DNA from: Ramlibacter terrae | GTDB taxonomy: Bacteria > Pseudomonadota > Gammaproteobacteria > Burkholderiales > Burkholderiaceae_C | NCBI GenBank assembly: GCA_013127575.1 | Contig: CP053418.1 | Span: forward strand, 4,154,001-4,218,000 | Length of the DNA stretch: 64,000 bases | Reading direction: 5' to 3' | In this document: piece after piece, positions 961 to 46,576 of the stretch | Layout: each line of letters starts with the position of its first letter | How positions within the stretch are numbered: the stretch's first letter is position 1 | Notes under the pieces: generated by a model | Databases searched by the model: none | The model's input: the letters and a program-made list of their open reading frames with translations, nothing else | Told to the model about the DNA's origin: nothing | Translations under genes and position numbers: made by a program

Positions 961-1733
961 ATGGACATGAATCTGCAAGGGACCTCCGCCGTCGTCACGG
1001 GCGGCGCATCGGGCCTCGGGTTGGCAACGGCGAAGCGCCTGCTGCAAGCCGGAGCCAAAGTCACCATCGCCGACCTCGCCACGTCCAGCGGCAAGCTGGT
1101 GGCCGAGGAACTGGGCGCGTCCGTCCAGTTTGTCGCCGCCGACGTTACCGACACGGCCGCGATGGAAGCGGTGTACGACGCGGCGGAGCGCTGGGGACCC
1201 GTCCGCGCGCTGGTGCACTGCGCCGGGCGCGGCGGCGCCGTGCGGCTGGTGGAGAAGGACGGCAGCCCGGGTTCGCTGGAGACCTACGAGGCCGTCATCC
1301 GGACCAACCTGGTGGGCACCTTCAACACTCTGCGACTGGCAGCGGTACGCATGGCACGCAACGAGCGCATCGACGGAGGTGATCGTGGCGCCTGCGTGCT
1401 GACCGCCTCCGTGGCGGCCTTCGAAGGACAAATCGGCCAGATCCCCTACGCGTCGGCCAAGGCCGGCGTGGTCGGCATGACGATCGTCGCCGCGCGCGAC
1501 CTGGCTACCAAGGGCATCCGCGTCTGCACCATCGCGCCGGGCCTGTTCGACACCCGCGCTGCTGGCCCGGCTGCCGCAACAGGTGAAGGATTCGCTCGGG
1601 CAGTCGGTTCCGCACCCGGCGCGGCTAGGCACGCCGGACGAATTCGCGCACTGGCGCAGCACATCTGGAGAACCCGATGCTCAATGGCGAAACCATCCGC
1701 CTCGACGGCGCCATTCGCATGGCGCCGCGCTAA
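961..1733 (+). CDS. Short-chain dehydrogenase/reductase (frameshifted near the 3' end)
   Basis: NAD(P)-dependent oxidoreductase of the classical SDR family, probably a 3-hydroxyacyl-CoA dehydrogenase (type II HSD10-like) given the neighbours. Visible motifs are the cofactor site [10 protein letters not shown] near residue 12, NxxG-equivalent HCAGRGG, and catalytic Ser-Tyr-Lys in [23 protein letters not shown]. The C-terminal part is spread over three frames (shifts near 1555, 1650 and 1670). Joining them gives the usual family ending with [14 protein letters not shown] and a TAA at 1731. The second in-frame ATG (967) is an alternative start. The gene is followed 16 bases later by an enoyl-CoA hydratase. 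Confidence 0.85.
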
Positions 1734-1749
1734 GCGAACCGCACAGCCC

Positions 1750-2547
1750 ATGAACGCACAGTCCACAGCCCGCGCGGAACCGGATCCCACCGCGATCCGG
1801 TGGCCACGCTGCCTGGCGGCATTCGCGTCCTGACGATCTCGCGGCCAGACCGGATGAACGCCCTTGATCCGGCCGCGTCCGCGGCGCTGCGCCAGACCCT
1901 CGCCGACGCGATGGAGGACCGTGCACTGCGGGCGCTTGTGCTGCACGGCGCCGGGCCGCATTTTTGCACCGGCTTCGACCTCAAGCACCAGCGCGTGCCC
2001 GGCGAGGAAGGCGTGCTCGCGATCCTGCAGGACTGCTTCGTGTTGCTGCAGGAAGGTCCGCTGCCCAGCGTCGCGGCGATCGAAGGCAATGCCTTCGGTG
2101 CCGGCCTCTCTCTGGCCCTCGCCTGCGACCGGTGGTCGCCGCCGACAATGCCCGACTGTGCGCGCCTTTCACCGGCATCGGCCTGCTGCCCGATGTCGGG
2201 CTGGTGCTGACGCTGGAGCGCCGCGTCGGCTTCGGACGCGCGCGGCGCTGGCTGGTGGAAGGAACCGTGGTCGACGCGGCCGCCGCGATCGCAGCCGGCC
2301 TGGTGGACGAAGTCACCGCAGCCGGTGCGGCGCGCGACGCCGCAGTGGCGCAAGCGGCGCGATGGAGCGCGCGCGCACCCCTCGCGATTGCCGCGGTGCG
2401 CCAGCTCTCCCGGTTGCCCGCATCCCTCGTCGCCGAGACCTTCGCACACGAGCGCACGCTGCAGGGAGAACTCGGCGCCAGCGCCGACTTTGCCGAAGGT
2501 GTGGCCGCCTTCCGGGAGCGCCGCAAACCGGCGTTCGGGGACGCTGA
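1750..2547 (+). CDS. Enoyl-CoA hydratase/isomerase family protein (frameshifted)
   Basis: Crotonase-fold protein, likely hydrating or isomerising an enoyl-CoA in this cluster. Frames change near 1800 (one G of a GGG apparently lost), near 2140 and near 2537; joined, the product is about 265 residues. Oxyanion-hole segments HFCTGFDL and GNAFGAGLSLALACD are visible. The two glutamates of a canonical hydratase are not: the second position lies in APFTGIGLLPD. The stop TGA at 2545-2547 overlaps the ATG of the ligase gene, indicating translational coupling. The exact reaction is uncertain. Confidence 0.8.
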
Positions 2548-4111
2548 TGAACGGCCTCCAGCATTGGGCCGCGCTGCGCCCCGACGCGGTGGCCGCAGTG
2601 TTCCTGCCTACGCACCAAAGCCTGACTTTCGCGCAGCTGTCGGCGCAAGCGACCGCGGCTGCGCACTGGCTTATCTCGCAAGGCTTGGGGCCCGGCGACA
2701 GCCTGGCGGTGATGCTGGAGAACCGCAGCGAGCTCATTGCGCTCGCGTTCGCGGCGAGACGGGCTGGGCTGTACTTCACACCCCTGAGCGTGCACCTGCA
2801 GGAGCGGGAGATCGCGTTCATGCTGGGCGACTGCGGCGCGCGCGTGCTGGTGGTTTCGGCGCAGACGCGCGCATTGGCCCTGCGGACGGTCGCCGCGGCG
2901 AGCGGCGCCGAACCAGCGGTCTTCAGCGTGGACGACAGCGCCGACAACGCCGTGACGTCGCTTGCACCGCTGGTGCATGGCCGCCCCACGGACGACGCCA
3001 CCTTGCCGCCGCGGCCGGTGGGTCGCGACCAGCTCTATTCATCTGGCACCACCGGCATGCCACGCGCCATCCGCAAGCCGCTCGGCGCACGGGAACACCG
3101 GCACGAGGAGGATCGCGAGGTCGCGGCCTGGCGTCGCACCTTCGAGTTCGACCACACGTCGGTCTACTTCTCGGCGGCGCCGCTATACCACGCCGCTCCG
3201 CTGCGCTACGCGCTGCGCACCATCGACTGCGGCGGCACCTGCGTGCTGCAGGCCCGGTTCGATCCGCCACAGGCCCTGCATGCGCTGACCGAGTGGAAGG
3301 TCACACACAGCCAGTGGGTGCCGACGATGTTCGTGCGGCTGCTGGCGCTTCCACCGGGGAGCGCGAACGCTGGACGCCCCGCGCCATGAAGCTTGCCATT
3401 CACTCCGCGGCCCCGTGCCCCCAGCGGTCAAGCAGGCCATGATCGCCTGGTGGGGCCCCATCGTGTACGAATACTACGCGGGCACCGAAGGCGTGGGCCT
3501 GACGGCCATCGACAGCCGCGAGTGGCTGCAGCGGCCCGGTTCGGTCGGCACGGCGAAGCTGGGCCGACTGCGCATCCTCGGGTGATGGCGGCGAACCGCT
3601 GCCCCCGGGGAGATCGGGCACGTCTACTTCGAAGGTGGCCCCGATTTCGCGTACCTCAACGATCCCGAGAAAACGGCCGCCATGCGCAATGCGCAAGGGT
3701 GGACGACGTACGGCGACATCGGCCACGTCGACGCGGACGGCTACCTGTTCCTCAGCGACCGGCGCGCGGACCTGATCCTCTCGGGCGGCGTCAACGTCTA
3801 TCCGCGTGAGGTCGAGGAAGTGTTGATGGGCCATGCCGCCGTCGACGATGTCGCCGTGGTCGGCGTTCCGGACGACGACCTCGGCGAAACTGTGAAGGCC
3901 GTGGTCAAGCTGCGCGATCCGGCCCCTGGCGGCAACGTCGCGTGAACTGCTCGCGCAGGAGCTCATCGCCTACTGCCGCGAACGGCTGTCGCACTTGAAG
4001 GCGCCGCGCTCCGTCGATTTCGCCGCGGAGTTGCCGCGGATGGAGAACGGCAAGCTGATGCGCCGCCGGCTGAAGGAACACTACCGCAACCTGGCGCGCC
4101 ATGACACCTGA
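2547..4111 (+). CDS. AMP-dependent acyl-CoA ligase (frameshifted)
   Basis: ANL-superfamily ligase that activates a carboxylic acid to its CoA thioester through an acyl-adenylate, likely the entry step of this catabolic cluster. It shows the P-loop motif SSGTTGMPRAIRKPL near residue 165, the YEYYAGTEG motif of the adenylate site, the hinge-like YGDIGHVDADGYLFLSDR, the core GGVNVYPREVEEVL, and the C-terminal lysine context PRMENGKLMRRRL. Shifts are apparent near 3357, 3590 and 3940. Joined length is about 520 residues, normal for the family. The 3' end overlaps the CoA-transferase start by 11 bases. The acid substrate cannot be read from the sequence. Confidence 0.88.
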
Positions 4112-5325
4112 CGACACCCCGGAACCCCTGCCGCTGGACGGCCTGCGGGTGGCTGACTTCGCCGCCGGCATCGCCGGGCCGCACGTGGGCCTGCTGCTGG
4201 CGCACCAGGGGCGCCGACGTCGTCAAGCTCGAACCGCCCGAAGGCGACTGGAGCCGCGTGCTGGGTTGCAGCATCGACGAGTTCAGTCCCTTCTCGGTCT
4301 ACTACAACCGCGGCAAGCGCTCGCTGGCCATCGATCTCAAATCCGCTGCCGGACGCGCACTGGCCCTCGAGATCGCCTGTTCGTGCGACATCGTGATCGA
4401 GTCGTTCCGCCCCGGCGTGATGAAACGCCTCGGCCTCGACCACGAGACGCTGCGCCGGCACAAGCCCGGCTTGATCTACCTCTCGATGAGCGGTTTCGGG
4501 CAGGACGGTCCCGATGCGCAGTTGCCGGCCACGGACACCGTCATCCGGGGCTACTCGGGATTGATGAGCCTCAACAAGGATGCGCAAGGCGCGCCGCAGC
4601 GATTTCCCTCGATCATCATCGACGTGGTATCGGGCCTCTACGGCTTCCAGGCCGTGATGGGTGCGGTGGTGGCGAAGCTGCGCTACGGCCGCGGCGCGTA
4701 CATCGACTGCAGCCTGCTGCAAAGCGCGCTCGCGCTGCAGGCGCCTTCGATCGTCAAGCACCGATTCGAGAAGGGCCAGCCCACCGTGATGTACGTCCCG
4801 CTTGGGGTCCTCGCCACGCAGGACGCGCACGTGAGCATCTCGGTCAACCGCGACGAGCACTTCACCGCGTTCTGCCGGGCCATCGAACGGCCAGAACTCG
4901 CCGACGACCCCGCGTACAGCACCCTCGCCGCGCGCATCACCAACGAGAAGCCTTTGATGGCGCTGATCCGGGATGAATTTCGCCGGCGCACCACCGACGA
5001 ATGGGTGGCACGGCTGCAGGCCGAAGGCATCCTGCACGCGCGCATCCGCACCTACGATGAACTGCTCGCCGACCCGGAACTGCAGCGTGCCGGCATGCTG
5101 GACTGGCTGCTGCACACGGCCGTGGCCGAGCCGCTTCCGATCCCCAACATTCCGGCAGGCCCTCGCGCCACGGCGTACGGCGTACTGCGCGAGTGCCCGC
5201 GCGTTGGCCAGCACACCGCGGAAATCCTCACCGGCTTCGGCTGGTCCGCCGACCGGGTGGCCGAGGCCGTTCGGCAAGGCGTGGTGACCACGCAGCGGCG
5301 CACGCGCGCTCCTTCCTCCTCCTGA
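4101..5325 (+). CDS. CaiB/BaiF family III CoA-transferase (one frameshift)
   Basis: Moves CoA between an acyl-CoA donor and a free acid, or racemises alpha-methylacyl-CoA. Family marks are GLRVADFAAGIAGPH at the N-terminus, the CoA-binding run ADVVKLEPPEGD, NRGKRSLAIDLK, ESFRPGVMKRLGL, and the segment GAYIDCSLLQS, which carries the catalytic Asp. A single shift near 4210 splits the first 35 residues from the rest. The gene is embedded between the ligase (11-base overlap) and the thiolase-like gene (2-base gap), so it is in the same operon. Confidence 0.88.
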
Positions 5326-5327
5326 CC

Positions 5328-6510
5328 ATGCCTGCCATGCGAACCGCCCTTTCAGATCACCCAGCCGGCGATGACGTGTGGATCGTCGACGGCGTTCGCA
5401 CGCCGCTCACGCCGCCCGGCGCCCTGCTGGAAGTCCAGCCGTCGGCACTGCTCGCGGGGCTGGTCCAGGCCCTGCACGAACGCGTGCCCGGCCTCACCGC
5501 CGGCGAGCCCGGCCGCTGGACGGGTTGGTCGTCGGCAGCCTGCCCGAAGGTGCGCTCGCCGCGGGCGCCGTGCCGCGCGCGCTGGCGCGGGCCGAGGCGC
5601 CGGCCGGCGCGGGTGCCGGGCAACTGGAAGGCACCGGCGCCGAAGCGATCCGCCAGGCGGCTGCGCAACTGCGCAGCGGCGACGTGCGGCTGCTGCTCGC
5701 CGGAGGCATCCACCACCCCGCAGGCCGGGCGTCGCTGCCCGTCCACGGCGACATCGGAGGCGCGGTCGCTATGCGCGTGGTCAGCCCCCGCGTCGCGGCC
5801 GATGTCTGGCCGCGTTGGAAGACATCAAGGCGCCCGCGGTCGCGGCGCAGGCGCACAAGCAGCAGAGAGCCGGCGCACCCGCGGCGGCCGACGGCGAATG
5901 CGTACCCGTGCACGACGTCAACGGGCTGCCCATCGTAGCCGCCGACGACCTCCGCCTCGCACCCGGCGAAGCGCCCGAAAGCCCTTGGCAGAACCACCAC
6001 GTGGTCGCACGCCGGTGCACCCGCAACTGGGCGACATCGCCCGCATCCACACGCTGGACCTCGACCCGCCTCCCGCCGAGGGCGCCTGCTTGCTGCTGCT
6101 GGCCCGCGCCGACGCCGCGCTTCCCCTTGGCTTGGTTCCGCGCGCGCGGCTGGTCGCCACGGCGAGCGCGGGCCACCTGCCGTTGCGGGGCCACGAAGCT
6201 GCCGTCTTCGCATTCGCGCGGGCGTTGGCACGCGCCGGCTGGACCCGCGACGAGCTGGAGATGCTCGAAGTCTCGAGCCCCTTCGCGGGCGTGCCGCTTG
6301 CGCTGGGTGCGGCGCTCGGCATCGACGGCGCGCGCATCAACCCGGACCCCGGCAGCTGGTGGTTCGCACGGGCCGGCGCCGCGTCATCCGCCATCGCTCT
6401 AATGCGCCTGCTGCGGATCCCGGAAACCAGCCGGCGGCGTCGCGGTGCGTTGCTTTGCACGGGCGCGGCAGGACAGGCAACGGTTCTCTGGTCGAGCGAG
6501 GCAACGATGA
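5328..6510 (+). CDS. Thiolase-like protein lacking catalytic Cys and His (frameshifted)
   Basis: The fold is recognisable: WIVDGVRTPLTPPG at the start, the AGGIHHPAG turn after the first active-site helix, ELEMLEVSSPFAGVPLALG, GARINPDPGSWW and a terminal LLCTGAAGQATVLW. The normal nucleophile segment (Cys-x-Ser-Gly) reads QLEGTGAEA with no cysteine. The normal GHPxGxxG loop reads FARAGAASS with no histidine. The segment around the nucleophile position is open in one frame, so the missing Cys is not explained by the frameshifts near 5515, 5815 and 6010. The end overlaps the next gene (ATGA at 6507-6510). It probably works as a non-catalytic or altered partner of the FadB-like protein downstream. 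Confidence 0.7.
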
Positions 6511-8411
6511 TTGAAGCGGGCACCGAAAGCATCCGGGTCGAGATCGGCGATGACCGCATCGCCACGTTGACAATCGACGTTCCGGGCCGGGCGGCCAACA
6601 CGATGAGCTCCGGCTTCAAGGCCGAACTCTGCGAACTGGTGCCACGGCTGCGCGCGGTGCGTTCTGAACTGGCCGGCGTGGTGATCACCTCCGCGAAGAA
6701 GACTTTCTTTGCCGGTGGCGACCTGCGCACCCTCCTCGCCGTGCAGCCCACGGATGCCCTCGGCTTCTTTGAAGGGCTGGAGCGGTTCAAGGCCGGCCTG
6801 CGCGGGCTGGAGCAGCTCGGGCTGCCGGTCGCCGTCGCCATCAACGGGGCCGCACTCGGAGGCGGCTGGGAGATCTGCCTGTGCGCCCATGCGCGCTTCT
6901 GCCTGGCGGACGACAAGCTGCTGCTCGGCCTGCCCGAGGCGTCGCTCGGCCTGCTGCCCGGCGCCGGTGGCGTCACGCGCATGGTGCGCAAGCTGGGGTT
7001 GCGCAAGGCGCTGCCGCTGCTGGTGGAAGGCCGCACCTTCGCGCCGGCGCAGGCACTGGCCCGGGGCCCTCTGGATGGCACCGGCCCCGACCTGCCTTCG
7101 GTGATGGCGCAGGCGCGGGCACGGGTGCTGGCCAACCCGGATCCGAAGGTGCCCCGGGATGCGCCCGGGTTCGCGATCCCGAGCCTCGACGCGGACCTGC
7201 AGGATGTAGCGTGCAACGGACCGGCCGACCTGCTCGCGAGCGGGCACGGGCTCTATCCCGCGCGCCAGGCCGTGCTCTCGGCCGCTGTCGAGGGCGCGGT
7301 GGTCGACGTCGATACGGCACTGCGGCTTGAGAGCCGCTATCTCGCGAGCCGGCCACCGGACAGGTGGCGAAGAACATGATCGGCACGTTCTTCTTCCGGG
7401 CCGGCGGTGAAGGCGGGACGCAGCCGGCCGGCCGAAACCGAGCGCGTCGCAGCGGCGGTGATCGATGTGGAGGGAGCCTCCGCGCCCTTGCTCATCGCAG
7501 CTCTTGCGAGCGCATCGCGGCGCGTGCCGGCCGTGGTCCACGCGCGAATGCCCCGGGCGACAGGCGATGCAGTGCAGGCACTCGACGCCATCGTTCGCGA
7601 CCTGGTGGCCGCAGGCCGCATGCCGCAGGCACGCGCCGCGACGGCACGCGCAGCGGTGCAAATCATGGACGCGCCTGCCGCGTCGACACTGCGCCTGGTC
7701 GATGCGCCATTCGGCGATGCAGCCAGCGGCGTGCTCCTGCTGGCCGATGCCGAAGTGGTGGTCCCTGCGGGCTGGGTGGGTGTTCGGGCGCTGCCCGACC
7801 TGCTCGCAGCAACCGTCGTCGAAGTCGTGCGGGGCAGCGGATCCGACGCAGCGCATGCATCACGCGTGTACGACTGGCTGCAGCAACTGGGGAAGACGCC
7901 GATCGCCATCTCCGATGCGCCGGCGGGCTTCCTTGCGCGTCTTGGCCGCGCAGCGGGTGCCGAGGGACTGGCCCTGTGCCGCGAAGGTTTCGCACCGGCG
8001 CTGGTGGAGAACGCATCGCTGCAGGCCGGCATGGCCGCGGGCGCGCTCACACTGGCACAACGGTTCGGGCTGGGTCGACCATCAGAAGCGATCTCCGGTC
8101 ACCAGTCGTCCCAGCCACTGGTGCAAGTCCGGGAAATCCGGGAGCGCCTGCTGTTCATCCAGGCGCTCGAAGCGCTTCGCTGCCTCGACGAGGCTGTCGT
8201 TGCATCGGCGCGCGACGCCAATCTGGCCGCGTTGCAGGGCCTCGGCTTCCCGGCGTGGACCGGCGGCGCCATCCAGTACGCCAACCATTACGGCCTCGGG
8301 CGGTTCTGCGAGCGTTCCGACGCACTCGCTGCGCGCCACGGCCACCGCTTCGCGCCGCCGGCCTTGCTGCGGCGGATGGTTGCCGATCGCGCGCTGGCCG
8401 TCGAACCATGA
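6507..8411 (+). CDS. FadB-like multifunctional protein: intact hydratase domain, eroded 3-hydroxyacyl-CoA dehydrogenase domain
   Basis: About 634 residues, against roughly 700-720 for the family. Residues 1-200 form a crotonase domain with oxyanion-hole AKKTFFAGGDL and both catalytic glutamates (E122 in GAALGGGWE, E144 in GLPEASLGLLPG). After the linker VAKNMIGTFFF comes the dehydrogenase part, aligned by VVEVVRGSGSD, QLGKTPIAISDAPAGFLARL and ALVENASLQAGM. The Rossmann GxGxxG is absent (the segment reads ERVAAAVIDVEGASAP), the catalytic His before VEVVRG is an Arg, and the usual Asn after the PGF motif is missing. A short out-of-frame stretch at about 7365-7395 has compensating shifts. Hydratase function is likely; NAD-dependent dehydrogenase activity is doubtful. 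Confidence 0.75.
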
Positions 8412-8418
8412 GTCCGCG

Positions 8419-8847
8419 ATGAACGCAGACGGAGTTGCCCGCGCGCCGGAGCCCGCCACCAGCGGGCTGCGCGAACACCTCGGAATCCGCTTCATCGGGA
8501 TGCAGGACGGCGCGGCGGTGCTGGCCCTCACGATCGGCCCCGAGCACATGAACCTCGCCAGCACGCTGCATGGCGGCGCGATCGCCACCTTGGTCGACAT
8601 CGCGTGCGCGCTCGCTGCTCGTGTGCCGCCCGGTCTGCCGGGTGCCGAACCAGCAGCTGCCAGGCGCGGGGTGGCGACGTTGTCGATGACGCTCAACTTC
8701 ACACGGCCCGTCAGCGCGGGCACGGTCCGCGCCTTCGGCCGCCGCGTTGGCGGAGGCCGCAGCATCGTGTTCGCCGCCTGCGACGTTTTCGACGACCAGG
8801 ACCGGCTGGTGGCCAATGGCTCCGGCTGCTATGCATTCCGTAGCTGA
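8419..8847 (+). CDS. PaaI-type hotdog thioesterase
   Basis: Single-domain 4HBT/hotdog protein of 142 residues, predicted to hydrolyse acyl-CoA and release trapped CoA. The core signature MNLASTLHGGAIATLVDIA matches the HGG-x-hydrophobic-D motif of PaaI-like enzymes, with the Asp as the likely catalytic residue. MTLNFTRPVSAGTVRAFGR forms the following strands. There is no frameshift. It begins 7 bases after the FadB-like gene and is the last gene of the 961-8847 operon before the regulator. Confidence 0.85.
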   Translation: MNADGVARAPEPATSGLREHLGIRFIGMQDGAAVLALTIGPEHMNLASTLHGGAIATLVDIACALAARVPPGLPGAEPAAARRGVATLSMTLNFTRPVSAGTVRAFGRRVGGGRSIVFAACDVFDDQDRLVANGSGCYAFRS

Positions 8848-8880: not shown

Positions 8881-11581
8881 ATGCCCAGCCACTCCCCTCC
8901 TGCGCGCGGCATCTCGTCCCGGGGTGTTCCGCGCGCCAAGCTCCACGCACCCATGGCGCCGGCGACGCAAGTCCGGCGCGAGGACATCTGCGAGCGCGTG
9001 AGAGCCGCCGGCGCCGTCCGGCTCGTGCTGGTGCGGGCGCCCGCGGGCTTTGGCAAGACCACGGCGATGGCGCAATGCCGCGCCGACTGGAGGCGGCCGG
9101 CTGCCGCACCGCATGGCTCACGCTCGACGGCGCGGACAACGATCCCGTGCGCTTCATCAGCGGCCTCCGGGCCATGGCCGCGGCGCTGGGTGCGCGCGAA
9201 GTCCGGCTGGAGACCGGCGACTGGCCGATGCCGCGCTGGTGCTGATGGAGCAGTTGGCGGACAGCAACCCCTTCGGCCTGTACTTCGACGATTTCGAGAC
9301 GATCCAGAACCCGGTGGTGCTGTCGATCATGCGCGAGCTGATCCAGAACCTGCCGCGCCAGGGCCGCGTGATGATCGCCTCGCGCACGGCCCCCGATCTC
9401 GGACTGGCTCGCATGCGCGCACGCGGCCAGTTGCTGGAGGTGACGGGCAGCGAGCTGCGCTTCACCATCGAGGAGGCGCAAACCTTCTTCGGCCGTCGTC
9501 CCGAGAGCAGGCTGCCCGACGACGACGTGCGCAAGCTGCACCTGCAGACCGAAGGCTGGGCCGCGGCGCTGTGGCTCGCCAGCCTGGCGCTGGAGCGCCA
9601 CGGCGTGCGGGAAAGCTTCATCGAACGCTTCTCCGGTTCGAGCCGCATCGTCACCGACTACCTGCTGGAGGAGGTGTTCGCCGCGCAGCCCCCGGCGATC
9701 CGGGACTTCCTGCTGCGCACCAGCGTCCTGCGCACCTTCGACGCGTCGATGTGCGAGGCCGTGATGGGCAACGGCTGCGGCGCCACCATGCTGCAGCGGG
9801 TGGCCGCGGCCGACCTGTTCCTCGTCCCCATCGAAGGGGAAGACGCCTACCGGTACCACAGCCTGTTCGCCGAGTTCCTGCGCGGTCAGCTCGTGCGCGA
9901 CCAGCCGGCCATCCTGCCGCAGCTCCATCTCGCGGCGTCGTACTGGTTCGAGCGCAACGAACGTCCGGTGCCGGCGATCGACCACGCCATTGAAGGCGGA
10001 CACTTTGAGCGCGCCATGGACTTGCTCCAGACGCAGGCCGACGACCTGCTGGAGGTCGGCCGCATGCGACTGCTGGCGCGCTGGTTCGACGCCCTGCCCT
10101 CCGCCGCCGTGCGCGAGCGGCCGCTGCTGGACATGGCCAAGGTCTGGGCCGTCTGCTTCACGCGCGGACCACGGGAGGCGATGCGGCTGCTCGACATCTC
10201 TGGCCGCACCGCCGAAGACCCGTTGGTTGCGCCACACGTGCTGGCCTTGCGGCCGCTGCTGCTCGGCATGATGGACCGCTACGAGGCCGCCTACGACGTG
10301 GGCCGCCGCAGCCTGCTGGCGCTGCCCACCGGGCACCCGTTCGCCGACAGCGTGCTGGCGACGACCATGGCCTACACCTTTCTCGTCATGGGCCAGTACC
10401 GCGAATCGCACCGGCTGCTGGGCACGGCGCGTCGGTCACAGGGCGGCCCGCGCAGCCACTTCAACAGCATGTACGCGGAGACGGTAGAGGGCCTGCTGGA
10501 ACTCGAGGAGGGGCTGCTGCGCAAGGCCACTGCGCGATTCCGATTCGCCGTGCACGCCGGCGGCCAGCACCACCTGCGGCACGCGGGCGGGAACGCGTTC
10601 GCCGGCGTTCCGTATGCTCTCGCCCTGTACGAGGCCGGCGAGCTCGCCCAGGCGGAGTACCTGCTGGGCGTGTACGTGCCCATGGCGCGCGACGTCGGGC
10701 TGCGGGACCACATCGTCATGGGCCACGTGATGCTGGCGCGCATCGCGTTCCAGCAGGGCAATCGCGACCACGCACGGGAATTGCTGACGCAGCTCGAACA
10801 GGAAGGCCACGAGCGCAAGCTGCCACGCATCTCCGCCAGCGCGCGCCTGGAGCGCTCGCACCTGCACGTGCTGCAGGGCGACGCCGACGCCGCCAGGCTG
10901 GAACTGGAACGCGCCGCCGCCGACGAACAGGACGTGTGGGAACACGTGGCCAAGCTGCGGCTGCCGGCGCACGAACTGGAAGACCCGGCACTCGGCCGGG
11001 TGCGCTGGGAGACCTGCTTCGGCGATGCCTCGCAGGCAGTGCGGCAGGGCGAACAGGCGCTGGCGCTCGCCCCGGCGCAGAAGAAGAAACGGCGCTCCCT
11101 CAAGCTGCGCCTGTTGCTGGCGATCGCGCGGCGGCGCCAGGGCGCGACGCCGGAAGCGCTGGCCCAGCTCGGCAAGCTGCTGCACGCCCTGTCGGGCGAA
11201 GGTTTCGTCCGCCTCGTGGTCGACGAGGGGCTGCCGGCGGGGCAGTTGCTGCAGCTCTTGCAGGCGCATCCGCAATACCTGCGCGGCATCGCCGGACAGC
11301 CGATCTTCGACGACTACCTGCAGCGCCTGCTGCGCGCTTTCGGCCCATTGCCCGCACCGCCCGAGGCGCCCGAGTTCGGCGCGATCGAGGCGCTGACGCC
11401 CAAGGAGTCGCGCATGCTGCAGCTGCTGGCGGACGGTTCCTCGAACGTGGAACTGGCCAGCCGCCTCTGCGTCTCGGAAAGCACCGTGCGCACCCACCTG
11501 CGCAACATCAACATGAAGCTGAATGCGCAGAGCCGCACGCAGGCGGTGGCGATCGGTCGGCGCCTTGGCCTGATTTCCTAG
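8881..11581 (+). CDS. MalT-type LuxR family ATP-binding regulator (frameshifted near the 5' end)
   Basis: Large STAND-type transcriptional activator, about 900 residues. An N-terminal NTPase has Walker A APAGFGKTT near residue 60 and Walker B LYFDDFE. A long helical repeat (TPR-like) region follows. The C-terminal LuxR DNA-binding domain reads LTPKESRMLQLLADG, then VSESTVRTHLRNI. Such proteins switch on an operon when a small ligand, here perhaps a CoA ester or a free acid, binds the repeat region and ATP. The first 70 codons and the rest are in different frames (shift near 9090, another near 9225). It starts 33 bases after the thioesterase, so it may be co-transcribed and may control this cluster. 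Confidence 0.88.
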
Positions 11582-15464: not shown

Positions 15465-16433
15465 ATGAAGATCCTGCGAACCCCGGCCACCAGCCTTGCG
15501 GCATGTGCCGCCCTCCAAGTCGCGACGCCCGCGTTCGCGCAGGTCTTTCCGACCAAGCCCCTGAAGCTGATCACCGGCTTCGCGGCAGGCGGACCGTCGG
15601 ACGTGATCGCACGATCCATCGCCAAGGCGCTGGAGGACGAACTGAAGCAGCCGGTGGTGGTGGAGAACCGCACCGGCGCCGCGGGCGTCGTCGGCATGGA
15701 CGCGGTCACCAACAGCCCGCCCGATGGCTACACCATCGGACTCGTGGCCAACACGTCGACCAATGCGCTGCACTTCGCCAACAAAAAGCTCGACGTGGAA
15801 AACCGGTTCGTGCCGGTCGGCCGTTTCGTCTCAACCCGCATCCTGCTGGTGGTCAACCCGGAGAAGATGAACGTCAAGACGATGCCCGAGTTCGTCGACT
15901 CCCTGCGGCGCAACCCCGGCACCGCGGTGACCAGCGCCGGCCACGGCGGACTGGGCCACACGGGCTGGAGCTGTTCGCCCGGAGCAGAAGCTGAAGATCT
16001 CGCACGTGGCGTACCGCGGCAGCGCGCCCGCGATGCAGGACGTGATCGGCGGACAGGTGGCTGCCATGGTGGTCGACGCCACGTCCGCGATGCCGCACAT
16101 TCAGAGCGGTCGCCTGCGTCCGATCGCCTTCGTCTCGACCATGCGCGCCCCCACCCTGCCCGACCTGCCGACGGCGCTGGAGCAAGGCTACAAGTCGCTG
16201 CAGATCGACTCCAGCATGGGGATCGTGCTGCCGCCCAAGACGCCGCAGCAGATCGTCGACCGGATGCGGGCCGCACTCAAGGCTGCAGTGCTCAGCGCCG
16301 GGTACACCGAAGCGGCGGCCAAGCACGGCAACGCGCATTTCCACGAAGATGCCGATGCATTCAAGACTGGCTGCAGGCGGACTTCGATCGCTATGGCGAA
16401 GTGATCCGGCTGGCCAACATCAAGGTGCAGTAA
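15465..16433 (+). CDS. Bug/TctC-family periplasmic substrate-binding protein (frameshifted)
   Basis: Secreted receptor of the tripartite tricarboxylate transporter type. The N-terminal signal peptide ends near ATPAFAQ. The mature part begins FPTKPLKLITGFAAGGPSD, the typical Bug carboxylate-binding beta1-alpha1 loop, followed by VVENRTGAAGVVG and SPPDGYTIGLV. Frames shift near 15970 and 16365. Joined length is about 322 residues, as expected. No TctA/TctB membrane genes are beside it. It lies 33 bases after the SDR gene and probably binds a carboxylic acid related to the pathway. Confidence 0.87.
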   Translation: MKILRTPATSLAACAALQVATPAFAQVFPTKPLKLITGFAAGGPSDVIARSIAKALEDELKQPVVVENRTGAAGVVGMDAVTNSPPDGYTIGLVANTSTNALHFANKKLDVENRFVPVGRFVSTRILLVVNPEKMNVKTMPEFVDSLRRNPGTAVTSAGHGGLGHTGWSCSPGAEAEDLARGVPRQRARDAGRDRRTGGCHGGRRHVRDAAHSERSPASDRLRLDHARPHPARPADGAGARLQVAADRLQHGDRAAAQDAAADRRPDAGRTQGCSAQRRVHRSGGQARQRAFPRRCRCIQDWLQADFDRYGEVIRLANIKVQ

Positions 16434-17439: not shown

Positions 17440-17555
17440 GGTTCGCCGAGTGTGGCCCAGCGGCGCCCGCGCTGCTTCGTCGCTTCCGACGACGCCGCCT
17501 GTGGGGCGAGCCGGTACGCTCTTGCGCAGTCCTTCATCCACACCCGGAAGTCTCC

Positions 17556-18737
17556 ATGAACACTCCCGTCATCGTCGAAGCCCTCCGAACACCGATGGGG
17601 CGCGGGCGCGCCGACGGCGCGCTCTCAGGTGTGCACCCCGTCGAACTGCTCGCACAGACACTGCGCGCGCTGCTGACCCGCACTGGCATCGATCCGGGCA
17701 CGGTCGACGACGTGATCTGCGGCTGCGTGAGCCAGGTCGGCGAGCAGTCGGGAACGCCGGGGCGCATGGCTTGGCTGGCGTCCGGCTATCCGGAGCACGT
17801 GCCGTCCACGACCATCGACCGCAAGTGCGGATCGAGCCAGCAGGCCGTTCACTTCGCGGCGCAGGGGATCATGGCGGGCGCCTACGACGTCGCGATCGCC
17901 TGCGGCGTCGAGTCTATGAGCCGCATTCCCATGGGTACCTCCAAGCTCGGGCAGGACTCCGCCGGCCCGGGCATGGCCGCGCGCTACGCGCCGGGCCTGG
18001 TGCCGCAAGGCATCTCGGCGGAGATCATCGCTGCGCGCTGGGGTCTGACCCGCGATGCTATGGACCGGTATTCGGCGGAGTCGCATGCCCGCGCCGCCCG
18101 CGCCCGCGCGGCCGGCAGCTTCCGCCGCGAGATCTGCGCGGTGGCCACGCCGACCGGCATGGTGGAGGAAGACGAAACCATCCGCGAGAACACCACGGTG
18201 GAACGCCTCGCCTCGCTCAAGCCCGCGTTCGAGAACGACGCCATGAAAGCGCGTTTTCCGCAGATCGACTGGAGCGTCACCGCCGGCAATGCGTCCCAAA
18301 TCACCGACGGAGCCTCGGCCATGCTGATCATGAGCGAGCAGACCGCCATGCGGCTGGGACTGCGTCCGCGGGCCCGCTTTGTCGCGTTCGACGTGCGCGG
18401 CGATAGCCCGGTGGACATGCTCACCGCACCCATCCCCGCGACGCGCAAAGTCCTCGAGAAGGCGCGCATGCAGGTCGGCGCCATCGACCACTTCGAGATC
18501 AACGAGGCCTTCGCGTCGGTGCCGCTGGCGTGGCAGCGCGAACTCGGCGCCGACGCCGCCCGCCTGAACCCGCGCGGCGGGGCGATTGCCCTCGGCCACC
18601 CGCTCGGTGCTTCGGGCGTGCGGCTGATGACGACGATGCTGCACGCGCTGGAGGACACCGGCGGCCGCTACGGACTGCAGTCGATGTGCGAAGCGGGCGG
18701 CATGGCCAACGCCACGATCATCGAACGGCTGGCCTGA
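17556..18737 (+). CDS. Acetyl-CoA acyltransferase (thiolase)
   Basis: Intact 393-residue thiolase that cleaves 3-ketoacyl-CoA with CoA to give acetyl- or propionyl-CoA and a shortened acyl-CoA. The nucleophile Cys is in DRKCGSSQQAVHFAAQG, the base His in GGAIALGHPLGASG, and the second Cys in QSMCEAGGMANA. Unlike the thiolase-like gene at 5328 it keeps all three active-site positions. It diverges from the nitronate-monooxygenase-like gene with a 116-base intergenic region. Confidence 0.92.
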   Translation: MNTPVIVEALRTPMGRGRADGALSGVHPVELLAQTLRALLTRTGIDPGTVDDVICGCVSQVGEQSGTPGRMAWLASGYPEHVPSTTIDRKCGSSQQAVHFAAQGIMAGAYDVAIACGVESMSRIPMGTSKLGQDSAGPGMAARYAPGLVPQGISAEIIAARWGLTRDAMDRYSAESHARAARARAAGSFRREICAVATPTGMVEEDETIRENTTVERLASLKPAFENDAMKARFPQIDWSVTAGNASQITDGASAMLIMSEQTAMRLGLRPRARFVAFDVRGDSPVDMLTAPIPATRKVLEKARMQVGAIDHFEINEAFASVPLAWQRELGADAARLNPRGGAIALGHPLGASGVRLMTTMLHALEDTGGRYGLQSMCEAGGMANATIIERLA

Positions 18738-26300: not shown

Positions 26301-27287
26301 CTACTCGATCGTGACGCCGGAGGCCTTGACCACCTGCGCCCAGCGCGCCAGTTCGTTCTTGACGTACGCGCCGTACTCGGCGGGCGTGGAACCCAGTGGT
26401 TCGGCGCCCTGCACAGCCAGCTTGGCGCGCACGTCGGGGCTTTGCAGGGCCTTGTTGATCTCGGCGCTCAAGCGGTCCACGACGGGCTTGGGCGTGGCCG
26501 CGGGCACCATCACGCCCTGCCAGGCGCCGACCTCGAAGCCGGGCATGCCCGACTCGGCCAGCGTCGGCACGTCCGGGAACAGCGACATGCGCTTCGAACT
26601 GGTCACAGCCAGCAGCTTCATGCGCTTGTCCTTGACGAAGCCCATCACCGAGTTGATGGTGTCGGTCATGAACTGGATGTCGCCGCTGGCCAGCGCCAGG
26701 TCGGCCGGCGCGCTGCCCTTGAACGGCGCGTGCACGGCGTCGATGCCGTTCGCCTGCGCAAACTGGAACGCGCCCGGGTGCGTCACATTGCCGTTGCCGG
26801 CGGAGCCGTAGCTCAGCTTGCCGGGGTTCGCCTTGGCGTACGCGACGAACTCCTTGACGTTGCTGGCCGGCACGCTGGGATGCACCACCAGCGCCAGCGG
26901 AACGACGGCCGTCAGCGCAACCGGCGCGAAGTCCTTCTCCACGCTGTACGACAGGCTCTTGTACAGCGCGGGGCTGAGCGTGATCGACGAGGTGTTGTAG
27001 AGGATGGTGTAGCCGTCGGCCGGCGCGCGCACCACGGCCATCGCGCCGATGTTGCCGTTGGCGCCGCCCTTGTTGTCGACGACGACGTTCTGCCCGAGCT
27101 GTTCGCCGAGCTTTTGCGCCAGCACGCGCGCGACCAGGTCGGTCGGGCCACCCGGCGGGAATGGCACGACCATGGTGATGGGCTTGGTCGGCCGGGCAGC
27201 GCCCTGTGCGAAGGCCGGCGCGGCGATCACGCCGATGGTGGCAACAGCGGCTGCGATCGCGGCGCGGCGGGTGAAACTGGCTTGCAT
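26301..27287 (-). CDS. Bug/TctC-family periplasmic substrate-binding protein
   Basis: Intact 328-residue receptor. The start ATG at 27287 gives the leader MQASFTRRAAIAAAVATIG ending APAFAQ, with an adjacent Arg-Arg that might allow Tat export. The mature protein starts ARPTKPITMVVPFPPGGPTD, the ligand-binding loop, followed by VVVDNKGGANGNIG, APADGYTILYNTSS and DVPTLAESGMPGFEVGAWQG. It is one of two tandem receptors in the minus operon with no transporter membrane subunits nearby. Confidence 0.92.
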   Translation of the reverse strand: MQASFTRRAAIAAAVATIGVIAAPAFAQGAARPTKPITMVVPFPPGGPTDLVARVLAQKLGEQLGQNVVVDNKGGANGNIGAMAVVRAPADGYTILYNTSSITLSPALYKSLSYSVEKDFAPVALTAVVPLALVVHPSVPASNVKEFVAYAKANPGKLSYGSAGNGNVTHPGAFQFAQANGIDAVHAPFKGSAPADLALASGDIQFMTDTINSVMGFVKDKRMKLLAVTSSKRMSLFPDVPTLAESGMPGFEVGAWQGVMVPAATPKPVVDRLSAEINKALQSPDVRAKLAVQGAEPLGSTPAEYGAYVKNELARWAQVVKASGVTIE

Positions 27288-27313
27288 GCTTGTCTCCTGC
27301 TGGTGGTTGTCGT

Positions 27314-28287
27314 TCATTCCTGCTGCACCTTCGCCTTGACGGCGATGCGTCTCCACAGCTCGATCTCCTCGCCCCGGAACTTGCGCATCTCCTCGGCGCC
27401 GCCGTTCATGGTCTCGGCTCCCAGCTTCTCGTAGAAGGCCTTCGTCTCAGGCAGGCGTTCGATCTGTCCCAGCAGGGTGGCGAGCTTGTCGGTTTCGGCC
27501 TTCGGCGTCTTCGCCGGCACCATCGCGCCCACCCACACGTAGGCGCCGTAGCCGGGCAGCCCCGCCTCGCCCATGTGCGGCACGTCGGGCAAGGCGGTGG
27601 CACGCCGGCTGGAGGCGACGGCCAGCGCGCGCACCTTGCCGCTCTTGACCAGCTCGGTCGACGCAGTGATGTCGGCGAACGCCGGGTCCACCGTGCCGGA
27701 AGCGACAGCGGTGAGCGCATCGGACGCGCCCTTGAAAGGCACGTTCACGATCTCCGGCCCGCGCGTTCGTTCAGCGCCTCGTTCATCAGCTGGTAGCCGG
27801 CGGAGCCGCCGCCGTGATTGAGCTTGCCCGGCTGCGCCTTGGCCGCGGCGATGAGGTCAGGCAGCGTCTTGAAGGGCGACTGCGGCGGCACCACGATGAC
27901 GGCCGGCGCGCGCATCATCATGCTGAGCGGCGCGAAGTCGACCTGCGGGTTGTACGGCAGCTTGCGGAACAGCGCGACGTTCACGGCCAGCGTGGAGTTG
28001 CTCCCCACGAACACGGTGTACCCGTCGGCGGGCGCGGCCAGCACGGCCTGCACCGCGATGAAACCGTTCGCGCCCGGCTTGTTGTCCACCACCACCGGCT
28101 GGCCGGTCATCTCGGTCAGCTTCCTGCCGAAGTAGCGCGCCGAGGTGTCGGTGCCGCTGCCCGGCGCGAACGGCACCACGAACTTGATCGGCCGGCTGGG
28201 AAACTCCTGCGCCAGCGCGGTGGCCGTAGGCAGCAGGGTGGACGCGGCCGGGGCGGCAGCGGCGAGCAGAAAGCGGTTGCGGTTCAT
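27314..28287 (-). CDS. Bug/TctC-family periplasmic substrate-binding protein (one frameshift)
   Basis: Paralogue of the gene at 26301. A signal peptide (ending TATALAQ) follows MNRNRFLLAAAAP. FPSRPIKFVVPFAPGSGTD is the ligand loop, then VVDNKPGANGFIAVQAVL and APADGYTVFVGSNSTLA. The shift near 27750 separates the last 140 residues, which continue NVPFKGASDALTAVASGTV and end AVKAKVQQE. Joined length is about 324 residues. Presence of two divergent receptors side by side suggests two related ligands. Confidence 0.88.
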
Positions 28288-28316
28288 GGGGGTTTGTCTC
28301 CTCTTTGGTCTTTGGT

Positions 28317-29293
28317 TCAAGCGGCGCGGACGAACTCCGCCAGCGTCGTGCCGGCGGCGAGCACCTGCTCGCCGACGACGCGGTGCCAGTGGCTTTCGCC
28401 GCCGTGCGCCAGCCGCCATTCGTGCAGCCTGCGGGTGAACAGCTGCAGGTCGTATTCCTCCGTGACGCCGATGGCACCGTGCAGCGCATGCGCGGTGTTG
28501 GCGACGCCGGGCGCAGCCTCGCTGGTGCGGGCCTTGGCCATCGCGGCCGGCAGCAGGCGGGGCGTGCGGCCGTCGGTCTGGAAGGCCGCTTCGGCGGCGA
28601 TGGACGCCGCGGCCACCTGTTCGGCCATCACGCTCAGCTGGTGCTGCACCGCCGGAACTTGCCCAGCGACTTGCCGAACTGGCTGCGCTCGTTGCAGTAC
28701 TGCAAGGTCATCTCGAAGACGCGCGTGAGCGCGCCCGCCAGCAGCGCGGCGTGCACCGCGGCGGCCAGCGGCGGGAGCGCGGCGGCGTCGCCGGCGATCG
28801 GCTCGGCGGCCGCGGGATCGGCCCAGGACAGCGTTGCCAGCTGGCTGTGCGCGATGCCGGTGGAGCCGCGCCGGGCCCGCGCGCAGGACAGCAGCACCAG
28901 GCGGTCGCCGTCGGCGGCCAGCACGTGGTCGGCGATGGCACCGAACGGGACCAGCGGGCAACGGACGCCGCCGGCGGCGTCGCGCTGCAACGCCGGTGCG
29001 ATCGTCAGCAGGCCTTGCGGCAGCTGCACGCCCTCGCCCACCAGCGCGCGCGCGGCGATGGCCTGCGCCGCCGGCACCGGCACCGCATAGCGGCCGAAGT
29101 GCGCGAGCACCGGGAACAGTTCCGCCAGCGGCAGGCCGGCGCCGCCGCGCTCCTCGCTCGCAAGCAGTTCGAGGAAGCCGGCGCTTGCCAGTGCGTCCCA
29201 CAGGGCGACGGGCGAGCCGCCGGCTTCGATGGCGCGGACCACGGCGGGCGTGCAGTGGTCGCGCAGGATGTCTTCGATGGCGTCCGCGAACAT
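28317..29293 (-). CDS. Acyl-CoA dehydrogenase, short divergent subunit (one frameshift)
   Basis: About 325 residues, shorter than the usual 380-400. It keeps SAGFLELLASEERGGAG, the C-terminal QYCNERSQFGKSLGKF region and HALHGAIGVTEEYDLQLF. It lacks a recognisable [11 protein letters not shown]-type FAD/substrate motif in the middle, and the base-bearing C-terminal segment is atypical. The shift is near 28660. It sits 8 bases from another acyl-CoA dehydrogenase gene, the layout of heteromeric FadE pairs in which one chain is non-catalytic. Confidence 0.8.
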
Positions 29294-33690: not shown

Positions 33691-35707
33691 TCACAGCCCC
33701 TTAAGCGATTCAGTCATCATGGCGTCCAGCCAACGCGCAGTGTCCTCGCCGCGCAAATGCGCGTACGCCTTCCTGACCGTTTCCTCCCGGTCATGCAGGA
33801 CGTACGCTGCAGCACCCCACGCGTTCGGATGGGCTTTCAGGATCGCGGTGGCGACCGGGTGCCTCATGACATGCGGGCCCACCCCGGGGCAGTCTCTGAA
33901 GTATCGCCTTGTGATCGCTGCGAACTGTCGATTGAGGCTGTACATGGGCCCACCTGAAGAGTCACCTGACACGAACAGGTACGGGTTGTTGGGGTCCGCG
34001 AGCAAGGGTCGGTAGGACTTGAGGTAGATCTCCAGATCCTTCCAGACTTCTTTCCTGACCGGCATGTCGTAGGCGCGATCCTTTGCTGCGCCCGCTTGGT
34101 TTTTGAAGTCCTTCCTGTCTATGGCAATGCGCCACTCACCGTTCTCCTTGCGCAGCTGCGGAAGCTCTCGGGACACTGGGCGCTATGGTCAACAACTTTA
34201 GATTCTTTGCGCGCAGGGGGTTGGATGCAAGGAGCTTGACCATCAAGCGATCGCGAGCCCAAAGAGCTTCCGTCTTGCCTCCTGTGTTCGGCCGTGCTGC
34301 GTCCATGCGGACGACTGCGTCAGTCACGGCGTGCAGCGGATTCGGCAAGGCGAGCATGGACGCAACGGGGGCCTTGGGATCACGAGACATCTCGGCGCTA
34401 TCACCCACCTCGTCCAAAAGCTCCTTCGCGCGGGCGAAAACGGCGTGGCATCTAGCCGCCCAGTCCGCTTCGTCATAAGAGTACCGATGACCGGGGAACC
34501 GGGTGCGCGTCTGGGTCAGGTATCCAGTCTTCGGGTGACAGAGACTTGCAAAAAACTGGAGCAAGCTCGAAATCCCCCGGTGGTGCGTCCCGCCAGACCG
34601 AGCCACTCGCCAATGCACAAAAGCTTCGAGATGGTGGACATTCGCGAGCGCAGCCGGGGACTGAGCTGCTTCGGGAGCCAAGCCAAGTCCGCCGTGTTCG
34701 ACACCCGGGGTGAGCCAGCCGAGGTACTGGGAGACTCGGGACCAATTAATGGTCGCCGACTGGCAGTGCCTCGCCGGTTGCCCCGGGGACCAGGATCGAG
34801 CCAGCCCAGTGGAGGCCGCTTTCGGGCACGATGGGTCTTTGCGTAAGCGACCACTTGCCCTTCTTCTGGCGCTTCAGACCGCCGCCGCCAAGGCTCGTCT
34901 TGTGCTCAACGAATTCACGCCACTCCCGCATGAGAGATGGACTGGCAACTTTCAATGCGTATCGGAGCTTGACCTGTTCCGAGAGTCGGCGCCGGTAGGG
35001 GATGGCCTGTGGGGCTGGCGCCTCCTGAGTCTCAGGGCCAGACGGATCCCGCCGCCCGGGGGCAAGCAGGTCAGTCAATGTGCCGGGACTTGACCGAAAT
35101 GGTGCTCCGGGCGCTGAACGTGTCGGAGCGTGGTGCGCTGGGGCAAGCCTCCGGCCATCCAGCGTTTGATGGTCGCGAGAGGCACGCCCGTCCTTAAGGC
35201 AGTAGTCTTTATCGCGACTCCTGCAAAAAGCGCGCGCAGCGCGCTTTGAAAAGGTGTCTCGCTGGCGTTCTGAGCCGCCGCTGACCGATCCAGCTGCATC
35301 ACCAGCGCTCGCCACTGCTTGAGCAGTGCCTTGCGGTTGCGGATGTACGCTCCCGGCCGCTTCTCCTTTTGAAGTTCCGTGACGTGGTGGGAGATCGCAC
35401 GGTAGTAGCCGACGCGAAAGTGAGTGCCGACGCACTCGTCGTCTCGGTACCCGCGCTCTTGCATGAACTGCACGAGTGCACTCACAGCATTGGGTAGGGA
35501 ATTGGGAGAGATGCCGTCGCCGGAGCGCGTGCGCTCGCTCATGGCGCTTTTGAGTTGCGCAAAGGTCAGGGATGGAATTGTCATTGGGCGCTTACGGGCC
35601 CGACGACGGAGGCCTCCCGCCGCGCGCGAGATGTCATTTAGCGGCACAGGGAGTGCGTAATGATGTCCTATGCTAAGTGGTTGATTTCTAAAGTCTTTTT
35701 CGTTCAT
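33691..35707 (-). CDS. Large tyrosine recombinase/integrase with N-terminal HTH-like region (frameshifted)
   Basis: Joined over shifts near 35100, 34750 and 34180 the product is about 670 residues. The N-terminal 200 residues include FRVGYYRAISHHVTELQ and a HTH-like TTALRTGVPLATIKRWMAG. The C-terminal catalytic domain has LASNPLRAKNLKLLTIAP (first Arg), GPHVMRHPVATAILKAHP (His-x-x-Arg, here HVMR), and KAYAHL with the nucleophile Tyr. The start ATG 35707 is used; MTIPSLTF further in is an alternative. As the leftmost island gene it is the likely integrase. Confidence 0.8.
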
Positions 35708-44349: not shown

Positions 44350-46576
44350 ATGGCAACCGCGACGCGATACCTGATCGGCAAAGGTGAGCTTCTGACCTTC
44401 GGCATTGATGCGCCGAAGAAGAAGCCATCGGAGAAGAAGCACCCCTACACATTGGCGGAGGCCAAAGCCACGCTGATCCCGCAGCTGGAAGCGGCCAACG
44501 CTGCCTTCTCTGAGCTGCCGGATGGTGCGTGTCCGGACGATCAGGCCGTTGCGCGCATCACACTGCACCCCGCGTACATCGCCAAGAGCTACTTCCCCCG
44601 CGTGCTGCTGCAGCAGGCAGGCTTGGTATCAGTTGGAAGCCGCAACCGGCGCATCCGTCCGCGCAAGGTTGTCGCGAAAACTGCGCCGGCTGAAGCGGAC
44701 ACCACGGAGTTGTTCGTGGCTGGGCCTCGCAGCGCGCTTCGTCGGCTGATGAAGCAGGCCCGCTTGCTGACAGCCGACATGGCAGCGGCGCACGAGTTCG
44801 CGCAGATCGAAAGCATCGAGCCGATGATGCCATCCGACCGGTTGCGCCCTGCCGGCGAGGGGGCCGCAAAGGACGTGTTCGAAGTCGGCTTGCACATCCC
44901 ACTGGCGACGCTGCTGCGCGTGTGCGCGCGCAGTTCAGCATCTACGCCAAGGAGTGCGGGTTCAGAGTGGATGACCGCTTCGAGTTCGAGGCCGGGCGAC
45001 TCCTGTTCCTCCCTGTTGAAGGGCCGAGGAAGCAGCTGCAGAAGCTCGCATTGTTCACTCTAATCCGGGTAGTCCGGCCGATGCCGCGACTGCGCAGTGC
45101 TCGTCCGATCTTTCGCAGCACGAAATTGCCCGTGTCTTTTGAGCTGCCCAGTGCGGAGCCGCTGTCGCGCGAGCCGAAGGTCGCCGTGCTTGACGGCGGT
45201 TTGCCGGATCAACACATCCTCGGTAGTTTCGTGCGACGGTACTTCCTTTCAGACGAGGAGGCGGACGACGTTCAGGAGTACACGGAGCACGGCTTGGCCG
45301 TAACTTCGGCGCTGCTGTTCGGGCCGATCGAGCCTGGTCAGCGCGCGGAACGCCCGTACGCAGCGGTGGACCATCACCGCGTGCTCGACGCGCAGTCGGA
45401 CAGCGAGGACCCGTATGAGTTGTACCGGACCCTCGGTCACGTCGAGGCCGTCCTGCTCTCGCAGAACTACCAGTTCATTAACCTGAGCCTTGGCCCCGAC
45501 CTGTGCGTAGAGGACTCCGACGTGCACGCATGGACAGCCGTGATCGACCACATCCGAGAGCGACGGCTCGACCCTCATGAGCGTGGCAGTCGGCAACAAC
45601 GGCGAAGGCGACGAAGCGCTGGGGCTGAACCGAATCCGGTGCCGGCCGACAGCGTCAACGCCCTCTGCGTGGGTGCGGTTGACCATGCGGGCGCCGGCTG
45701 GTCCCGCGCACCCTACAGCGCATGCGGGCCAGGTCGCAGCCCCGGTCGCCGGAAGCCTGACGTGGTGGCGTTTGGGGGTTCGCCGAAGGAATACTTTCAC
45801 GTGGTTGCGCCCGGCAAGCGGCGAAGTCTTGCGACGCAGCTGGGCACCAGCTTCGCCGCGCCGCTCGCACTTCGTGCCGCGGTGGGGATCCGCGCGATCC
45901 CGGGCGCCGATGTTCACCCGCTCACGATCAAGGCACTGTTGGTGCACGGTGCAGAGGACAGCTTGGCCGAGGGCGCCGAGGAGGTGGGCTGGGGCCGCGT
46001 ACCTTCGGATTTGAACAGCATCATCACCTGCGGCGACGGGGTCGCGCGGATCATTTACCAAGGCGAGCTCACGCCCGGCAAGTACCTGCGGGCACCTGTT
46101 CCGCTGCCGCACGGAGGGTTGCAGGGCAACGTCGACATTACCGCCACCTTCTGCTACGCCACACCCGTCGACCCCCGGGACGCGAGCGCCTACACGAAGG
46201 CGGGTCTGGACGTCACGTTCCGGCCCGACATCAAGAAATTCAAACCGAACGCGAAGCAGCCGAACAGCTACAGCTTCTTCCCCTCCAACGAGTGGCGAAC
46301 GGAAGCAGAGATGCGCAACGATCTCGGCAAGTGGGAGACCCTGCTCCACGCCGAGCACACCCTCGGGGGAGCAGCCTGAACGGCTCGGTGTTCGACGTCC
46401 ATTACAACGCCCGCGACGGCGGCGCGAACGCCGGCGGTGGCGCGACGAAGATCCGGTACGCGCTCGTTGTGACGGTGAGGGCGCCGAAGCACGTCGATCT
46501 CTACCAAGAGATCCTGAGGGCGCACGCGAAGCTCGAGGCTCTTGAGCCGCAGATCTCCCTGCCGATCCGCGCTTGA
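44350..46576 (+). CDS. ietS: S8 subtilisin-like protease, IetS-like (frameshifted)
   Basis: About 740 residues. A long N-terminal region (about 275 residues) of unknown fold precedes the protease domain. Catalytic Asp in KVAVLDGGLPD, His in YTEHGLAVTSALLFG, oxyanion Asn in VAVGNNGEG, Ser in LGTSFAAPLALR. C-terminal beta-rich region with VRAPKHVDLYQEILRAHAKL. Shifts near 44925, 45585, 45640 and 46377. There is no signal peptide, so it acts in the cytoplasm, as expected for an abortive or toxin-like protease held by the AAA+ partner just upstream. Confidence 0.78.

Follow-up and report, generated by a model that had tools for sequence, protein, structure and literature searches.

The window analysed here is a stretch of 64,000 nucleotides of the Ramlibacter terrae genome (GenBank contig CP053418.1, positions 4,154,001 to 4,218,000). 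The gene under study occupies 6507–8411 of the window on the forward strand and, judged from its sequence, is a paralogue of FadB that has kept the enoyl-CoA hydratase half and lost the 3-hydroxyacyl-CoA dehydrogenase half. Its reading frame (frame 0) starts with ATG at 6507, meets a TGA stop at 7377–7379 and is open again to 8411; a conserved FadB stretch, TGQVAKNMIGTFFF, lies across this stop at 7355–7396 in a frame other than frame 0. Domain A, the enoyl-CoA hydratase, and the linker helix B together occupy 6507–7349. They are followed by a degenerate NAD-binding domain C at about 7437–7910, a remnant of the mostly missing domain D at about 7911–8111 (the borders of both being approximate), and the C-terminal domain E at 8115–8411, which is at most 57% identical to that of intact FadB. 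The read-through product has 634 residues, against mostly 705–721 in intact relatives; this shortfall of about 70–90 residues agrees with the figure of about 80 given in a first-pass annotation of this DNA. Codon usage points to frame 0 as the coding frame over the stretch 7460 to about 8400, with 0.01–0.40 bits per codon as compared with 0.19–0.69 in the hydratase part.

The first part of the protein matches the Pfam enoyl-CoA hydratase family (4.6e-22). The second part passes the cut-off for the 3HCDH C-terminal domain (29.4 bits) and matches the tail end of 3HCDH_N with 21.9 bits, just under the cut-off of 22; the only other Pfam match in it is to DUF1805 at E 0.07. Among solved structures, the closest relative of the protein is the FadB alpha chain 4b3h. 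The NCBIfam models for FadJ and FadB, which judge the whole protein, give only 200.2 and 182.9 bits against cut-offs of 869 and 870. A structure model of the protein with one companion was poor (mean predicted local distance difference test score, pLDDT, of 45), and no conclusion is drawn from it.

In order to express the loss and retention of each domain numerically, we counted conserved columns, defined as those shared by at least 90% of 24 intact FadBs. This reference set excludes nine FadB2-type or planctomycete rows, locus L002 (frame-broken C-terminus) and locus L098 (cut by the locus end); left-out intact proteins keep 72–100% of the columns. With 20 residues at the frame break masked, the window protein keeps all 37 hydratase columns, 12 of 19 in the linker, 14 of 57 in the NAD-binding domain, 12 of 33 in D and 15 of 17 in E, with a Fisher p of 8e-15 for hydratase against NAD-binding retention. 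The best identity to an intact FadB is 54% in the hydratase domain and 30% in the NAD-binding domain. Both glutamates of the crotonase pair, E122 in ALGGGWEI and E144 in LGLPEASLG, are found as the first-pass annotation had claimed, and the protein is expected, as far as conserved residues can predict, to work like an enoyl-CoA hydratase.

The dehydrogenase half was compared with 34 alignment rows, namely all rows other than the window protein and two further dehydrogenase-less forms described below. The position of the Rossmann motif GxGxxG, present in all 34 rows, reads EGASAPLL. The dehydrogenase His, likewise present in all 34, is replaced by Arg in VGVRALP, while the Glu 12 residues further on is kept and the SNTS segment, including its Ser, is gapped. 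The earlier claims of a missing glycine motif and a His-to-Arg replacement thus hold. The claim that the conserved Asn is missing needs a correction: the IVVND column does carry Ser in the window protein, but it has N in just 22 of the 34 rows and hence has no diagnostic value. At the VNR/TSR position that follows directly, which we take to be the site of the catalytic Asn of this enzyme class, the window protein has Ala and many intact rows have Ser. The tandem of D and E typical of the C-terminal part is not found either, since E is well kept but D has a large gap. When a profile of intact NAD-binding domains was run over the three frames of 7250–8100, no intact domain was found, the best score being 36 bits, whereas the same profile gave 382 bits on the core FadB of this genome; the profile aligns GAGMMG with the same degenerate letters of the window gene. 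A GxGxxG motif hidden in another frame is ruled out by this result. We conclude that the protein descends from FadB but, failing the dehydrogenase tests and the FadB/FadJ cut-offs, should not be classified as a bifunctional FadB.

The upstream neighbour at 5330–6500 (forward strand) is a FadA-like thiolase read in three frames with three breaks. When tested against FadA, the degradative thiolase, it can be aligned over its length and holds the expected place upstream of FadB; it differs in that the nucleophile Cys, NEAF and GHP are lost, while the last Cys motif is kept (CTGAAGQ). The degeneracy of this neighbour had been noticed beforehand, and the suggestion that the two genes form a FadA/FadB-like pair retaining only hydratase activity is supported by the column counts and the motif-less thiolase.

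The genome, a single contig of 5.28 Mb with a completeness of 63.7%, is rich in indels. The core FadB of this genome, whose first 587 residues share 89% identity with the FadB of a species of the genus, is split into three frames by two breaks, and the core thiolase into four pieces by three breaks; the window pair has exactly these numbers, two in FadB and three in the thiolase. The idea that the pair is unusually rich in frame breaks was accordingly rejected. The gene at 62721–63274, which we take to be hisA, is broken as well, and frame breaks are therefore general to the assembly and not specific to the pair; other broken genes in the window should be read with this in mind. The frame breaks do not explain the missing motifs. 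The earlier argument that one open frame excludes sequencing error needs to be amended: the gene is not one clean open reading frame (ORF), given the TGA, but the motifs are missing in all frames, and the absence of the SNTS segment and of most of D cannot be put down to small indels.

A phylogenetic tree of the hydratase domain, built without the nine FadB2-type or planctomycete rows and six near-duplicate rows of the genus, places the window gene inside a group of 11 rows with 100/100 support, the other ten of which are ordinary FadBs, as expected for descent from FadB. The FadB set was limited to proteins whose match covers 230 or more residues of the hydratase query, and many of the loci L010–L038, being cut by their flanks, are thus absent; the motif alignment and the first tree are also without L009, L006 and a shadow frame of L040. 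The homologue search proposed earlier found two other dehydrogenase-less proteins, of 587 amino acids (aa) in genome G279 and 470 aa in genome G239, both in good assemblies and 74% identical to each other in the hydratase. These two forms, the intact orthologues and the mirror-image forms mentioned below make up another group of 9 rows (100/99). The hypothesis that the window gene and the other dehydrogenase-less FadBs share a single origin was rejected by the approximately unbiased (AU) test (p 0.00017), which therefore indicates at least two separate dehydrogenase losses, with long branches as a caution. Grouping the 587- and 470-aa forms in one clade was not rejected (AU p 0.167).

The NAD-binding domain is absent from the 470-aa form. 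Seven of 101 genomes of the genus of G239 give a match at E 1e-90. The 470-aa form is present in four of them (G239, and G887, G868 and G847 at 91–93% identity), two carry intact FadB orthologues (G896 and G848, 65–66%) and one a distant intact FadB (53%). Pairwise ratios of nonsynonymous to synonymous substitution rates (dN/dS, Nei-Gojobori) among the four 470-aa forms are 0.10–0.32 for residues 1–215, 0–0.18 for residues 216–304 and 0.12–0.20 for the tail, so that purifying selection acts on this form in all four species. The occurrence of dehydrogenase-less FadBs elsewhere, one of them under such selection, shows that proteins of this kind can be stable products. The 587- and 470-aa forms keep 35–36 of 37 hydratase, 3–16 of 57 NAD-binding and 12–13 of 17 E columns, so that all dehydrogenase-less forms, including that of the window, largely keep E (12–15 of 17) while C and D go.

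Short FadB forms look rare in the sampled genomes. The 587-aa form was found in one of eight genomes of the genus of G279, and in a class-wide sample of 369 genomes (E 1e-60, at most four candidates scored per genome) 16 match, with 15 frames of at least 710 aa and one of 546 aa (G1166). A scan of genome contigs gave ordinary planctomycete FadB only, a scan of viral contigs gave no match, and the plasmid matches listed (the best 15 of 159 and the best 12 of 123 records) are of ordinary FadB span. FadBs of the opposite, mirror-image type were also found, at 1061–3178 of locus L094 (G253) and 1007–3115 of locus L096 (G077). In these, the oxyanion and Glu motifs of the hydratase are destroyed and the dehydrogenase is intact, 16–18 of 37 hydratase and 52–53 of 57 NAD-binding columns being kept. 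They adjoin a thiolase with intact motifs, 72–76% identical to the thiolase of G279, and a MalT-like regulator.

The window pair stands in a run of genes on the forward strand concerned with acyl-CoA. Its first gene, at 961–1735 with frame breaks near 1554 and 1650, encodes a short-chain dehydrogenase/reductase (SDR) of HSD10 type, that is, resembling type II 3-hydroxyacyl-CoA dehydrogenase. The PDB matches of 961–1548 include entries of that name (1e3s, 1so8 and 4o5o, about 1e-48 to 1e-47), and the top two matches are SDRs without the type II name (8e-52). A small crotonase-family protein at 1800–2540, with one frame break and isomerase-like by eye, lacks both hydratase Glu (GAGLSLAL and APFTGIGLLPDVG), which leaves the FadB-like protein as the run's sole crotonase with both. 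An AMP-binding acyl-CoA ligase follows at 2550–4090, frame-broken and recovered by tblastn in the pieces 2577–3353, 3427–3915 and 3917–4084, and then a CaiB/family III CoA-transferase at 4101–5325 with a frame break near 4258 (CoA_transf_3, 8e-83 for 4258–5322). Downstream of the pair are a PaaI-like 4HBT thioesterase at 8419–8847 and a MalT-like LuxR regulator at 9050–11581, whose N-terminus lies upstream in another frame and which marks related acyl-CoA clusters of the family. On the reverse strand at 8–787 there is a piece of an acyl-CoA dehydrogenase, 53% identical to its counterpart in the G279 cluster, and a separate thiolase at 17553–18731 (forward strand) exceeds the curated cut-off for acetyl-CoA C-acyltransferase and is a possible source of thiolysis.

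Several other features of the window are recorded here as side observations. Between 33700 and 50000 the G+C content falls to about 60–67%, from about 69% before, and this stretch resembles a tRNA-associated genomic island; it contains an integrase-like ORF at 33691–34176 on the reverse strand (Phage_integrase, E 1e-4, under its cut-off), a subtilase at 44922–46379 and a tRNA-Thr at 49607–49682. At 15465–16433 and 26301–28419, several ORFs resemble, by eye from their translations, binding proteins of the tripartite-tricarboxylate type. As for the MalT-like regulator, a search of 299 family genomes at E 1e-60 found it in 29, among them the window genome; at loci L073–L101 it is mostly beside genes of acyl-CoA dehydrogenase, HSD10-type SDR, thiolase or ligase, and may serve as a cluster marker.

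Gene order around the relatives bears on how the lost step might be replaced. An intact FadB2 and an HSD10-type SDR lie within about 5 kb after the 587- or 470-aa form at all five loci, and within the fetched DNA this combination occurs at neither of the two loci with intact orthologues (G896 and G848) nor at the two mirror loci. We propose, with a probability of roughly 60%, that the window protein is a hydratase-only FadB whose product is oxidised in trans. The pair would belong to an accessory operon for acyl-CoA degradation, in which the FadB-like subunit would work as an enoyl-CoA hydratase only: A, the linker helix B that closes the hydratase site and the domain E packing on that helix would have been kept, and C and most of D eroded. 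For oxidation of the 3-hydroxyacyl-CoA released, the likeliest candidate would be the HSD10-type SDR encoded by the first gene of the putative operon, and thiolysis would be left to another thiolase. The thiolase-like neighbour would be catalytically dead and, if functional at all, may serve as a scaffold for docking of the FadB-like protein.

Various points weigh against this proposal. No orthologue of the window protein was apparent in overlapping samples of 60 genus genomes, 399 family genomes and 147 relatives. The linker is weakened, with 7 of its 19 conserved columns lost, the branch of the window gene is long (0.85 changes per column), the AU test is exposed to any long-branch pull, and the in-frame TGA could be real. 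Even in the 587- and 470-aa forms, E falls under the 79% minimum of left-out intact proteins. A dead thiolase is found in the window only, the partners of the other half-lost FadBs having intact motifs. With regard to oxidation, the window has no FadB2, and the core FadB of the genome could also supply this step. The FadB2-SDR pair is common in such clusters in any case: six of them (L073, L075, L076, L077, L079 and L084) have it with no FadB-like gene in their fetched DNA, and the mirror loci show neither FadB2 nor the SDR in theirs. In addition, the four 470-aa species probably represent one event, so that the five loci amount to one to three events; for these reasons the link with the FadB2-SDR pair is an association, not a statistic.

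Some of these points would equally be expected if the two genes were a decaying pseudogene pair, both losing function after duplication with the hydratase last to go. A dead thiolase and a dead dehydrogenase adjoin, the apparent lack of an orthologue, the long branch and the weakened linker suit such a process, and one in-frame TGA is accompanied by an out-of-frame stretch. We nevertheless consider decay unlikely, because complete retention of the hydratase columns at 54% best identity is not the pattern of a uniform decay, the coding signal persists over 7460–8400, and the core FadA and FadB carry just as many breaks. To the thought that the gene is an ordinary FadB whose dehydrogenase half was scrambled by assembly indels, we give hardly any credence: the low completeness in one contig, the indel-rich sequence and the two frame breaks do invite it, but the profile that recognises the core FadB finds no intact NAD-binding domain here in any frame, similar losses occur in good genomes, and small indels cannot remove the SNTS segment and most of D.

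Other explanations accept the loss of the dehydrogenase but differ on what the remaining parts do. The eroded half may have acquired a new role, such as that of a binding site for an acyl-CoA, a partner or a regulator; about 160 residues of domain C stay in frame with a coding signal, the catalytic pair has lost its His but still has its Glu, and the 470-aa forms show that C can simply be deleted. We regard this as very unlikely in view of the 14 conserved columns out of 57, the 30% best identity and the Pfam result, limited to 3HCDH pieces and the DUF1805 match. Crotonase folds carry many CoA reactions, and the crotonase half might perform another of them, such as that of an isomerase or a C–C lyase, in which case the term hydratase-only would be a misnomer. 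The crotonase neighbour looks isomerase-like; against this stand both hydratase Glu and all 37 columns of intact FadBs, and we allow it only a slim chance.

The preferred hydratase-only reading can be set against known systems. With bacterial FadB/FadJ and mitochondrial or peroxisomal MFE1 (FadB being the alpha subunit of the fatty-acid oxidation complex) the window protein shares the order A-B-(C)-(D)-E, both hydratase Glu, domain E and, next to it, a thiolase gene; it differs from them in lacking the NAD-binding motif, the catalytic His and most of C and D. With the monofunctional enoyl-CoA hydratase (crotonase) it would share catalysis by the same Glu pair, but it groups among FadBs and keeps the linker and E. 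The SDR has HSD10, or type II 3-hydroxyacyl-CoA dehydrogenase, among its best solved relatives, and this activity is predicted for it. According to two reports on rat MFE1 (PMC5715344, PMC10988713), domain B forms helix-10 of the crotonase fold; it lies over the hydratase site and is tightly packed against E. Such packing would explain the survival of E, and an A-B-E hydratase can be predicted by analogy with the rat structures. Laboratory constructs of rat MFE1, a BCDE truncation and an E123A variant, indicate that the halves of the bifunctional enzyme are separable (PMC10988713); these constructs keep the dehydrogenase, whereas in the window protein and the 470-aa forms, which occur naturally, it is the hydratase that remains. 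Among the matches listed from the open-licence literature, a coverage outside which most subscription journals fall, no paper on such half-lost forms was found.

A broader interpretation, which we put forward only tentatively, is that bifunctional FadB has been dismantled repeatedly, in either direction, within the acyl-CoA clusters of this family: the dehydrogenase would have been lost where FadB2 and/or an HSD10-type SDR is present, with E held as a strut of the hydratase in a natural A-B-E enzyme, the hydratase would have been lost in sister clusters, and the window thiolase would be a pseudoenzyme scaffold. For annotation, the present case is a warning that such genes may be named bifunctional dehydrogenases by similarity. 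FadB/MFE1 is a textbook multi-step enzyme, thought to benefit from having two sites on one chain. If our proposal is true, natural half-lost forms with a candidate replacement nearby would offer a direct test of what this fusion is worth and of whether the hydratase needs domain E.

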